Positions 15,875-19,669 of a stretch of DNA of 43,750 bases are shown here, piece after piece (positions within the stretch are counted from its first letter, which is position 1; every line of letters begins with the position of its first letter). The stretch spans positions 1-43,750 of the forward strand of contig JAPOPA010000093.1 in NCBI GenBank assembly GCA_026713145.1, read 5' to 3'. The position numbers were made by a program, and so were the translations under genes. This DNA is from Chloroflexota bacterium. Lineage in GTDB: Bacteria > Chloroflexota > Dehalococcoidia > Lucifugimonadales > VXLM01. The notes beneath the pieces were generated by a model. That model saw only the letters and a program-made list of their open reading frames with translations, ran no database searches and was not told where the DNA came from.

Positions 15875-16666
15875 TTACGCTAACGCCCTCAGGCTGTCGT
15901 CGTCAATCGGCTGGAGCGGGGTGAAGTCGCGGTTGTTCTGGTACCAGGGGCGCTCCGTGCCGGTACAGGCATTTCCAACGGCGTTGTAGTTCAGGTACAT
16001 GATGGCGCGACGCCATGGCGAGACGTTGTTCGACGAACCGTGTACGACGTTGCAGTGTACGAATGCTACCGAACCGGCGTTTCCTATCAGCGGTTCGATC
16101 CCGCCTTCGCCTGCCAGGCGTTCGAGGACTTCGCTGTCGATATGGTGGAGTGCATAGCCCCTGCCCTTGGCGTCCTCGTGGAGCTTGGAGTCAAGCAGAC
16201 CGTGTCGCTGCGAGCCGGGCACCACCAGGAGCGGGGAGGTCACGGCCGTGCAGTCGTCGACGTAGACGGAGGCCATGATGCAATTCGCCTCCGGCATCCC
16301 GTCGATGAGGTGCCAGGGCGGGTAGTCCTGGTGCCAGTCCCAACCGCCACCCTTCCCGAAGCCGGGCTTGGGATTGAGCCTGCTCTGATGCAAATAGGCA
16401 TCATCGCCCAAGAGCTGTTTGACGGGCTCGAGCATTCGTGGCAGGGTGAGTAGACGTTTGAACGGCTCGGAGTAGACGTGCGCCCCAAAGGCGAGACGCG
16501 CCGTCGTCGGGTCGTCTAGCTCACGGACGACCTCGGGACCCTCGCGGCTGAGAATTTCCGGCACCGCCCGTTGAAGCACGGCGACCTCATCAGCATCGAG
16601 AAGGTCGGGGAAGAACAGGTACCCTCGGCTTTCGAACTCCTCAATCTGCGATTCGTCGAGCTTCAT
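15875..16666 (-). CDS. Phytanoyl-CoA dioxygenase family protein
   Basis: YLFFPDLLDADEVAVLQRAVPEIL...WDWHQDYPPWHLIDGMPEANCIMASVYVDDCT...VHCNVVHGSSNNVSPWRR (Fe(II)/2OG HxD...H layout). Confidence 0.88.
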   Translation of the reverse strand: MKLDESQIEEFESRGYLFFPDLLDADEVAVLQRAVPEILSREGPEVVRELDDPTTARLAFGAHVYSEPFKRLLTLPRMLEPVKQLLGDDAYLHQSRLNPKPGFGKGGGWDWHQDYPPWHLIDGMPEANCIMASVYVDDCTAVTSPLLVVPGSQRHGLLDSKLHEDAKGRGYALHHIDSEVLERLAGEGGIEPLIGNAGSVAFVHCNVVHGSSNNVSPWRRAIMYLNYNAVGNACTGTERPWYQNNRDFTPLQPIDDDSLRALA

Positions 16667-16823: not shown

Positions 16824-16898
16824 GCGGGCGTAACTCAGTGGCAGAGTGTCTGCTTCCCAAGCAGAAAGTCGGGGGTTCGAATCCCCTCGCCCGCTCCA
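16824..16898 (+). tRNA. tRNA-Gly (anticodon CCC), CCA encoded
   Basis: Cloverleaf: GCGGGCG acceptor, TCTGC-TTCCCAA-GCAGA anticodon arm, GGGGG-TTCGAAT-CCCCT T-arm, CGCCCGC-T-CCA. Confidence 0.95.
16878..16898 (+). repeat. Direct repeat copy 1 (putative att site) at the tRNA-Gly 3' end
   Basis: CGAATCCCCTCGCCCGCTCCA, identical to 17734-17754. Confidence 0.85.
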
Positions 16899-17084
16899 AG
16901 TGAGCAGTTCAGAGAATGACTGCGCGAAGACGCGCGATCTGAGCGCTCAGCTCAGGAGAGGGAACAGTGGGAGGCATGGGACCGTCGGTGCTTGGAATCA
17001 GAGTGTCGAGCGTTTGACGAGTCGCCGCACGGCGCCGATTCGCAAGATTGATGAGGAGTCACCTGAGCAAGCGCGGAGGACGAT

Positions 17085-17333
17085 ATGACGACCAAAGACA
17101 GTCTCAAAGACTTGATCGATCAACTCCCCGATGAAGAACTACACACGGCCAAGCGCTTCATTGAGTACCTACGAGACGCAGGCTCTCCCTTGCTGGATGT
17201 CCTGCTTGAAGCGCCGGAAGAAACTGATGAGTTGAACGAAGAGGCCGACGCCGCACTGCGAGAAGCGGAGTTGGAAGTCAAGGCAGGAGATGTTGTGACT
17301 CACGCGGAGTTGAAGCGTGAGTTGAGCCTGTGA
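17085..17333 (+). CDS. Antitoxin-like small protein (RelB-type partner)
   Basis: MTTKDSLKDLIDQLPDEELHTAKRFIEYLRDAGSP...; acidic, overlaps (GTGA) a downstream RelE/ParE-like gene. Confidence 0.7.
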   Translation: MTTKDSLKDLIDQLPDEELHTAKRFIEYLRDAGSPLLDVLLEAPEETDELNEEADAALREAELEVKAGDVVTHAELKRELSL

Positions 17334-17587
17334 CTTGGAAGCTCGTCTATTCGAAGCGGGCTCGAAGGAGTATTCGTCGATTCGACTCGGCGACATCCAG
17401 ACGCATCGTTACCGGGTTGGAACGCCTGACAGCTACCGGACATGGAGATGTAGCTCGGGTTCGGGGTGACTCCACAAGGTGGAGGCTGCGAATTGGAAGT
17501 TGGCGAGTGTTCTTTACTTACGAGGCTAAGGAGCGCACTATATTTGTGCTTGACGTTCAACATCGTCGAGAGGCGTATAGAAGATAG
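17330..17587 (+). CDS. RelE/ParE family toxin
   Basis: WKLVYSKRARRSIRRFDSATSRRIVTGLERL...RVRGDSTRWRLRIGSWRVFFTYEAKERTIFVLDVQHRREAYR. Confidence 0.87.
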   Translation: MTWKLVYSKRARRSIRRFDSATSRRIVTGLERLTATGHGDVARVRGDSTRWRLRIGSWRVFFTYEAKERTIFVLDVQHRREAYRR

Positions 17588-17733
17588 AATGACCTTGGGG
17601 TGACGCAGGACGAGGGGCTTGCATACTGCTCATGAACCCCATATTCGTGTCGATTGGGAAATCATCCCGTGGCAACAAACGTGGTATTCCGAGGATTGAA
17701 CAAGAGACTGTAACTACGGTATTGGCATAAATC

Positions 17734-17754
17734 CGAATCCCCTCGCCCGCTCCA
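17734..17754 (+). repeat. Direct repeat copy 2 (tRNA-Gly 3' end remnant, putative att site)
   Basis: CGAATCCCCTCGCCCGCTCCA, perfect 21-bp duplicate of 16878-16898 without the rest of a tRNA. Confidence 0.85.
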
Positions 17755-17790: not shown

Positions 17791-19098
17791 CTACAGACCG
17801 TTTTCCGGCGGCATCTGACGAATGGCGGCGAGGGACTCGTCCGAACCGCGTTCCACTCGTTCCCCTGCCAGGAAGACATCCTCCACATTCCAGAGGTTGC
17901 GTATGTCTGCCGTTGGGTCGCCATCGAGAATAAGAAGGTCGGCCTCCTTGCCGGGTTCGAGGGTTCCAACCTTGTCGTCCATGTCGAGGGAGCGGGCGGC
18001 ATCGCCGGTCACCGAGTAGACACCCTGCTCATTGGAGTAGCCGGACATGACCAGGCACTCGGTCTCATAGGCCGTATTGCCGAGCATGTAGTTGCCCCAT
18101 GAAGAGTCGGAGCCGGTAATGACCTTCGCGCCCATCTCGATGAGCCGCCGACTGTGGTCGATGCGCACGTCGAACTCCCGAAGCTCATCGTCGAGCTCGG
18201 CCTGCTGCTGAGCGGTAAATCCTTCCTTCTCCTTGCGGTGCTGGAGGGTCCAAATGCGTGCGCGGAACACGTGGAGGGTGGGATTAACGTAGGCTCCCTG
18301 GCGAACGATGCGTTCTGCCACCGCTTCGTCGAAGTAGTTCGTGCCGTCCGCGCGTTTGAAGACGCAGTGGATGATCATATCCACCTCTGCTTCGAGGGAG
18401 TTGGCGATGCCCTGCGTCGAAAGGCAGTGCGCAGCTGTGGGCTTGCCGAACTTGTGAGCCTCGTCGGTGATGGCGAGAAGCTCGTCGACGTTGAAGGACG
18501 GTCGCATCGTGAACGATGTCCCGGTGCTGCCGCCGGTCGCCGTGATCTTGATGTAGTCCGCGCCCTCCTTGATGAGTTGCCGCGTCATGGCGCGGGCCTC
18601 ATTCGGACCGGTCACCTCGGAGCCGAAGTAGCCCATGTGGCCGCCTATTATGGATACGGGCCGCCCGCACAGGTGCATTCGAGGACCGACAGTCAATCCG
18701 TCGTTTACGGCGTCGCGGAGGCGGAACATCGTCATATTCTTCGGGCCGTTCTCACGGATGGTGGTGACGCCGGAGAACAGTGCCTTGCGAGCGTTCCTAG
18801 CGGCCTGGACGGTCAGGACTTCGTCGGGGTAGGTGGCGACTTCGTCGCCGACGCGCCCGTCGCCGAAGCCCACGTGGTGGGTATGAGCATCCACCATGCC
18901 GGGCATCAGGGTCTTGTCGGGGTAGTCGAAAGTCTCTACCGGAGCGCCCTCCGGTGCTCTCACCTCGCCCTGCCTGCCGACGGCGACGATCTTGGAGCCC
19001 TGCACGAGGACCGCGCCGGAGGGTTCGGAGGGACCGCCACGTCCGTCGACAAGCTTACCTGCGTGTATGAGCTTGAAATTGGCGACGTGATGCTGCAT
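17791..19098 (-). CDS. Amidohydrolase family protein (imidazolonepropionase/prolidase-like)
   Basis: NFKLIHAGKLVDGRGGPSEPSGAVLVQGSKIVAVG...TLMPGMVDAHTHHVGFG...HCLSTQGIANSLEAEVDMIIH...ITGSDSSWG; C-term VGTLEPGKEADLLILDGDP. Confidence 0.9.
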   Translation of the reverse strand: MQHHVANFKLIHAGKLVDGRGGPSEPSGAVLVQGSKIVAVGRQGEVRAPEGAPVETFDYPDKTLMPGMVDAHTHHVGFGDGRVGDEVATYPDEVLTVQAARNARKALFSGVTTIRENGPKNMTMFRLRDAVNDGLTVGPRMHLCGRPVSIIGGHMGYFGSEVTGPNEARAMTRQLIKEGADYIKITATGGSTGTSFTMRPSFNVDELLAITDEAHKFGKPTAAHCLSTQGIANSLEAEVDMIIHCVFKRADGTNYFDEAVAERIVRQGAYVNPTLHVFRARIWTLQHRKEKEGFTAQQQAELDDELREFDVRIDHSRRLIEMGAKVITGSDSSWGNYMLGNTAYETECLVMSGYSNEQGVYSVTGDAARSLDMDDKVGTLEPGKEADLLILDGDPTADIRNLWNVEDVFLAGERVERGSDESLAAIRQMPPENGL

Positions 19099-19126
19099 TA
19101 CGACGAGAGCCTCGCCATTTTGGGAA

Positions 19127-19669
19127 TTAGCTCTTTTCTTCGTCCCCCGCAGGCTCGTCACCGGCGCCCTCTTCGGGCATGTCCTCTGATGCACTGCCGC
19201 CCATGTGCTTCTGGAAGTAACCGGCAATGTCCATCTGGGCGGGAACGTAGACGAGGGTGGCAATTGCCCCGTTTTCGAGCATGATGTCGACGTGCTGGAA
19301 TCCCAGCGCCCTGCCAAACATGCCGAACCGGGTCCGAGTTTCTTTGAGTCGACTGAAGGGGATCAGGTACCGGCGTGTCTGCATGATTCCGCCGCGCTGG
19401 TAGATCAGCGCGTCTTCCGTGAGGTAGTACCTCGTACGCCGCCAGTGCCAGTACTTCGGTATGAGGATAACGACCGCGAGAACTGCAGGTGTGAAGGGAT
19501 CGGGGAAGATGCCAAACACGAAGATGATCAGGACGATGGCGAGCAGCCACCACGACGACCAGAGCCAAGCGTACTGGACTTGAGCGACTTCGATGGCGTC
19601 GTCGGGGACTTCCGGTTCTTGGGGCCGCTGGGGCTGCTGTGGTTGCTGCGGCTGTTCTTCGGTGTTCAT
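19127..19669 (-). CDS. Membrane protein with bacterial PH-like domain (DUF304-like)
   Basis: Two TM segments then YWHWRRTRYYLTEDALIYQRGGIMQTRRYLIPFSRLKETRTRFGMFGRALGFQHVDIML. Confidence 0.75.
   Translation of the reverse strand: MNTEEQPQQPQQPQRPQEPEVPDDAIEVAQVQYAWLWSSWWLLAIVLIIFVFGIFPDPFTPAVLAVVILIPKYWHWRRTRYYLTEDALIYQRGGIMQTRRYLIPFSRLKETRTRFGMFGRALGFQHVDIMLENGAIATLVYVPAQMDIAGYFQKHMGGSASEDMPEEGAGDEPAGDEEKS

Follow-up and report, generated by a model that had tools for sequence, protein, structure and literature searches.

A toxin-antitoxin unit bounded by copies of a tRNA-Gly 3' end in a Chloroflexota genome, and similar units at other tRNA genes

The locus

The window, which is the whole stretch of 43,750 nucleotides that was analysed, carries an intact tRNA-Gly(CCC) gene that is followed by a toxin-antitoxin (TA) pair. 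The genome it comes from (G000) measures 3.46 Mb and is a fragmented assembly of 398 contigs. The features at the locus are as follows.

15875 to 16666, minus strand: left native flank gene, phytanoyl-CoA dioxygenase family (PF05721); flank homologous in G003 and, on a separate contig, in G002
16824 to 16898, plus strand: target tRNA-Gly(CCC), intact (ARAGORN; Rfam tRNA, 70.5 bits)
16878 to 16898, plus strand: attL, the 21-bp repeat, from T-loop to CCA end; exact match; the empty sites of G002 and G003 each have it once
16899 to 17084, plus strand: left end of the insert, 186 bp, non-coding; missing from the empty sites, and no above-chance homologue among 60 relatives
17085 to 17333, plus strand: antitoxin-like ORF, 82 aa, upstream of the toxin ORF with a 4-bp overlap
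17330 to 17587, plus strand: ParE/RelE-family toxin ORF, 85 aa (PF05016)
17588 to 17733, plus strand: right end of the insert, 146 bp, non-coding; missing from the empty sites
17734 to 17754, plus strand: attR, the second 21-bp copy, exact match, with the native flank after it; from 17755 on, this flank has homologous sequence in the empty sites
17791 to 19317, minus strand: right native flank gene, amidohydrolase family (PF01979); flank 85% identical in G002 and G003

The sequence CGAATCCCCTCGCCCGCTCCA forms the last 21 nt of the tRNA gene (16878-16898). It returns without a single mismatch at 17734-17754, 856 bp further on from start to start, where ARAGORN calls no tRNA. A first-pass annotation of this DNA had pointed out this perfect repeat, and it is indeed exact. 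By chance, 0.01 matches to the 21-mer are expected in the window, even with 3 mismatches allowed. Within the whole genome these two copies are the only ones at up to 2 mismatches, and tRNA-Gly(CCC) is the only tRNA there with a copy of its own 3' end nearby.

Between the repeats lie only the antitoxin-like ORF and the toxin ORF, as the annotation had also stated. The toxin ORF matches Pfam ParE_toxin (E 3.3e-8, 34.4 bits, with a cut-off of 23) and PDB 2khe (E 2.4e-6). By its profile match, the predicted toxin belongs to the ParE/RelE family of type II TA. Of 250 genomes from the order, 28 have homologues at E<=1e-8; single-sequence searches with the toxin in genome contigs and viral contigs found nothing. 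The antitoxin-like ORF has a DUF2281 match below threshold only and no NCBIfam match, and is 39% identical to an ORF in G023 that occupies the same position beside RelE.

Inspection of ORFs and profiles in 16899-17754 gave no recombinase ORF, in agreement with the annotation, and no integrase remnant was seen in the 856 bp. Arm-type repeats within the unit are limited to weak, chance-like ones.

Empty sites in two relatives

The segment 15875-19317 was searched for in 40 relatives, and two genomes of the same genus, G002 and G003, have an empty site. Both match the query up to its position 1024 and resume at 1860, and the two matches overlap by exactly 21 bp. In the alignment, each has one intact tRNA-Gly and exactly one 21-bp copy, with the native right flank directly after it.

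The annotation had read the repeats as the signature of tRNA-targeted integration, and these one-copy sites bear that out. It had also named two findings that would speak against this: relatives that are all filled, which is not so given G002 and G003, and a local duplication of the tRNA gene. Because the empty site is present in two congeners and both flanks are homologous, the insertion is real, and duplication of the tRNA gene is not the source of the repeat. The alignment places the insert precisely at 16899-17754, 856 bp, with the tRNA preserved. This slightly corrects the span of 16824-17754 that had first been drawn. In short, the DNA entered tRNA-Gly at its T-loop-to-CCA end; the tRNA stayed intact and one repeat of 21 bp was left.

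Among 20 relatives, no att copies were found at tRNA-Gly(CCC), save for one whole-tRNA duplication (G027). No larger relative of the window unit was found at this tRNA in the same 20 genomes.

Similar units at other tRNA genes

The architecture of the TA unit is seen again elsewhere in the order, at several tRNAs and with several TA families. The data on this come from a tRNA scan of four genomes, and from searches for RelE and HicA across the order. Units of ~0.5-1.1 kb that are bounded by tRNA 3' ends lie at Glu(TTC), Gln(TTG), Lys(TTT) and Asn(GTT), with less tidy arrays at tRNA-Met and tRNA-Ala. They carry RelBE, HicBA, PIN/UPF0175-like or HigBA modules, some are arranged in tandem, and an integrase lies inside none of them. 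The annotation had proposed looking for the same TA cassette beside other tRNA genes. What is found there is similar compact units with other TA families; the interior DNA of the window's insert has no second copy in 60 relatives.

Toxin relatives in the order were also collected and then screened for tRNA repeats, which gave four further loci of this kind. At tRNA-Glu, G023 has two units in tandem, one with HicBA (587 bp) and one with antitoxin and RelE (590 bp), followed by a truncated third unit; 40- and 54-bp tRNA copies separate them, and the HicA is apparently frameshifted. G027 has a single antitoxin-RelE unit of 593 bp at its tRNA-Glu, and G082 a unit of 567 bp whose toxin has an internal stop. 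Some members of the units, like for example this toxin, look broken. The tRNA-Met of G023 is followed by a composite array, in which the antitoxin that is 39% identical to the window's lies with its RelE between tRNA copies.

HicBA units are found at tRNA-Lys of G023 (534 bp, with an 18-bp repeat that starts at the same T-loop CGAAT as the window's) and at tRNA-Gln of G027. In G182, which has the order's best HicA match, HicAB lies between tRNA-Gln(TTG) and a near-copy of 62 nt found 472 bp on; beyond this comes a second small unit that ends in a 14-bp copy. In G182 the HicB stop codon lies within the tRNA-like repeat. Both tRNA-Gln units, that of G182 and that of G027, have the operon's final stop codon placed in this way, a cassette-like compactness. 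In several independent units the operon ends a few to ~25 bp from the distal repeat, or has its stop codon inside it.

At tRNA-Asn, G082 has a PIN-like toxin and a UPF0175-like antitoxin in 1039 bp with a 15-bp repeat, where both profile matches are below the cut-off. The tRNA-Asn of G027 (L408 687-2900, G027:C15) has a 14-bp copy of its 3' end 2.2 kb on, with a long non-TA ORF between.

Related HicAB genes also lie behind the orthologous tRNA-Gln of G223, G227 and G231, which belong to another genus. Their inserts differ, and no clear repeat of their own tRNA-Gln was found. The remnant repeat in G231 (L463) fits the tRNA-Gln of other lineages better than its own, as expected if a cassette brought its donor's tRNA end.

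There are also some observations that stand on their own. A HicB-like ORF (L109, G000:C192) and a HicA-like ORF (L413, G027:C44) each lie directly behind a tRNA-Pro with no detectable repeat; both are possibly old cassettes. A unit at tRNA-Ala(GGC) of G082 (L215 4548-5016, G082:C86) holds one aspartyl-protease-like gene (PF13975), and its boundary is an imperfect 32-nt tRNA copy that is followed by a Phd-like/RelE pair. Three IMG/VR contigs (L475-L477) carry the exact tRNA-Lys 3' end that is used by the G023 HicBA unit, and IMG/VR scans for the tRNA-Glu and tRNA-Gln ends gave no match.

Tandem RelE arrays in G084 and G085 were considered as tRNA cassettes and rejected. They have no tRNA repeats, and what repeats in them is the homologous TA genes: two to four RelE TA pairs at ~560-600-bp spacing (L212, G084:C131, 8184-10400; L213, G085:C280, 3650-4680). 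Among 80 named RelE loci the architecture was found in only one, a record matching G082.

Controls

The tRNA scan covered tRNAs and up to 15 kb downstream of them in G000, G023, G027 and G082, and its loci were not picked by TA content. The latter three genomes were chosen for having a TA cassette, so that only their other tRNAs are unselected.

A copy of the tRNA's own 3'-end 15-mer lies downstream of 7 of the 144 tRNAs. There are 0 upstream, where there was less sequence than downstream (0.47 vs 1.27 Mb), and 0 on the opposite strand; a control with the end of another tRNA gives 0.27 on average. For 18-mers the numbers are 4 downstream versus 0. Local alignment puts 10 of 170 tRNAs above the best reversed-tRNA control, and in all 10 the copied segment extends to the last few bases of the 3' end. 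Every copy contains the 3' end, and none has the 5' end. Taken singly, repeats of 14-15 bp are near chance.

TA enrichment was tested using profiles of RelE and HicA that had been made from other loci. Behind all tRNAs, 12 TA genes are found in the first 1.5 kb, where 0.9 are expected. With the loci that had been fetched by their TA genes removed, this becomes 5 versus 0.46 expected (P ~1e-4).

Where an integrase could come from

The window's genome has ten tyrosine-recombinase matches, and P4-type integrases adjoin its Gln(TTG), Glu(TTC), Ala(GGC) and Ser tRNAs. Those at Glu and Gln lie on C364 and C101. The first three of these four isoacceptors are cassette sites in relatives, and count among the 7 isoacceptors used by cassettes. 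An overlap of at least three would arise by chance with a probability of ~0.01 (hypergeometric, 7 cassette isoacceptors of ~42), a figure that was computed after seeing the data. No integrase for Gly(CCC) was found in this genome, which has the 21-mer only twice, or in the 20 relatives, which have no att copies.

A viral contig from IMG/VR (L121 1-1774, IMGVR_UViG_3300047160_027607) carries ~31 bp of the tRNA-Gly(CCC) 3' end, which includes the exact 21 bp of the window. The gene of a P4-type integrase is ~200 bp away, and the contig has no tRNA. P4-type integrases therefore use this tRNA-Gly end, though in another host.

Interpretation

The window unit is probably a minimal non-autonomous integrative cassette, with a predicted TA operon and one putative attachment site that equals the tRNA-Gly 3' end. 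The annotation had left two options, a decayed island or a non-autonomous TA unit. The second fits better, since compact units of the same build are found at other tRNAs too, with different TA families, and no integrase remnant is seen.

Such a cassette might work as follows. A P4-type tyrosine integrase, provided in trans by an island or phage, would join a small circular cassette to the 3' end of the tRNA. Newcomers would enter at the intact tRNA, and older cassettes would be displaced outwards. A TA pair would be the usual cargo, and excision and deletion would be counter-selected, because loss of the cassette would free the toxin. The TA activity of the cassettes, like their insertion and excision by an integrase, is predicted from sequence.

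Some data count against the cassette reading. The window unit includes 186 and 146 bp of non-coding DNA, possible remnants of a larger island. Elsewhere, one tRNA-Asn unit has non-TA cargo, and one tRNA-Ala unit an aspartyl-protease gene.

A wider reading can be put forward only tentatively: an integron-like system without integrons, in which free sub-kilobase TA-operon cassettes would be captured serially at tRNAs by P4-type integrases acting in trans, and be kept by addiction. If so, tRNA genes would be general capture platforms.

The strongest rival, rather unlikely, is that a full-size island with its own integrase was reduced by deletion until only the att copies and a deletion-resisting TA pair were left, a CIME late in its decay. 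CIMEs and their tandem accretion are documented (PMC5704250), Dehalococcoides ssrA islands without integration modules are known (PMC3146451), and integrase-bearing elements sit at other tRNAs of this very genome. Together the non-coding parts of the window unit amount to 332 bp. Against this, the 856 bp hold no recombinase remnant, several independent units elsewhere are compact, and random deletion would be less expected to arrive time after time, at different tRNAs, at a bare TA operon. A decayed-island origin is possible for the window unit itself, given the non-coding DNA on both sides of its TA pair, and is less likely at Glu, Gln and Lys, where the units are compact.

It is improbable that the units arose by homologous recombination, with RecA acting on DNA that carries a tRNA 3' fragment, or from a duplicated tRNA that decayed around a TA gene. 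The Glu and Gln repeats are long enough to suggest it (40-62 nt) and a whole tRNA-Gly is duplicated in G027, but the Gly, Lys and Asn repeats of 15-21 bp are short for RecA, the copies have the 3' end and never the 5' end, and the empty site looks like a clean one-step insertion.

An assembly artefact, where a foreign fragment was joined via the shared 21-mer, is very improbable: the assembly is fragmented and 21 bp is a common minimum k-mer length, but both flanks of the insert are syntenic with a single G003 contig, other assemblies contain such units too, with repeats of 14-62 bp, and the foreign piece would need the 21-mer at both ends, which would still make it a tRNA-bounded unit.

Should the preferred reading, a non-autonomous TA cassette, be confirmed, it would offer a clean test of whether chromosomal TA pairs persist by addicting the cell to the DNA that carries them. 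It would also suggest that, in a largely uncultured phylum, tRNA genes can serve as capture sites in the manner of integrons, with integrases coming from other elements.

Comparison with known systems

Cassettes at tRNAs are not new, and neither are cis-mobilizable elements or integron TA cassettes. As for what marks a tRNA-targeted element, the locus has a repeat at its far boundary and an empty site in relatives, and lacks an integrase of its own beside the tRNA. No description of recurrent, integrase-free, sub-kilobase tRNA cassettes with only TA cargo was found in the open-licence literature, which is weak evidence as only open-licence papers were covered.

CIMEs are att-bounded integrated DNA without genes for integration or transfer, which can stack in tandem and are defined as decayed ICEs or IMEs (PMC5704250). 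The window unit similarly keeps att sites and lacks these genes. The cassettes here differ in being single TA operons of ~0.5-1.1 kb, which recur with different TA families.

The Dehalococcoides ssrA islands, from a related phylum, are tandem, have 20-bp repeats of the 3' end of an RNA gene, insert in the T-loop region, and in some cases lack an integration module (PMC3146451). In these respects they are alike. They target tmRNA where the window's target is tRNA-Gly(CCC), and they are large, with serine recombinase modules and reductive dehalogenase genes.

Additive flexible islands of Actinomarinales and Methylopumilus hold small tRNA cassettes, sometimes stacked, with a partial tRNA direct repeat (PMC7771536, PMC10872708). 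These are alike in being small, in location, in the partial tRNA repeat left behind and in stacking, but their cargo is envelope, transport or metabolic genes. The Actinomarinales are reported to be without TA systems (PMC7771536, PMC10872708). Tycheposons also place cargo at tRNA genes, in association with a tyrosine recombinase (PMC10872708). They differ in their size of 4-200 kb, in having their own recombinase and in their mostly metabolic cargo.

Sedentary chromosomal integrons have one TA operon per recombination site in their arrays, and these are thought to be stabilised by post-segregational killing (PMC11551772). The likeness is functional only: one TA operon per recombination site, and stacking. 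Integrons use attC and IntI, whereas here the sites are tRNA 3' ends, with no local integrase at the window locus. If confirmed, a unit of one operon and one attachment site would be among the smallest tRNA-integrating units in the literature compared.
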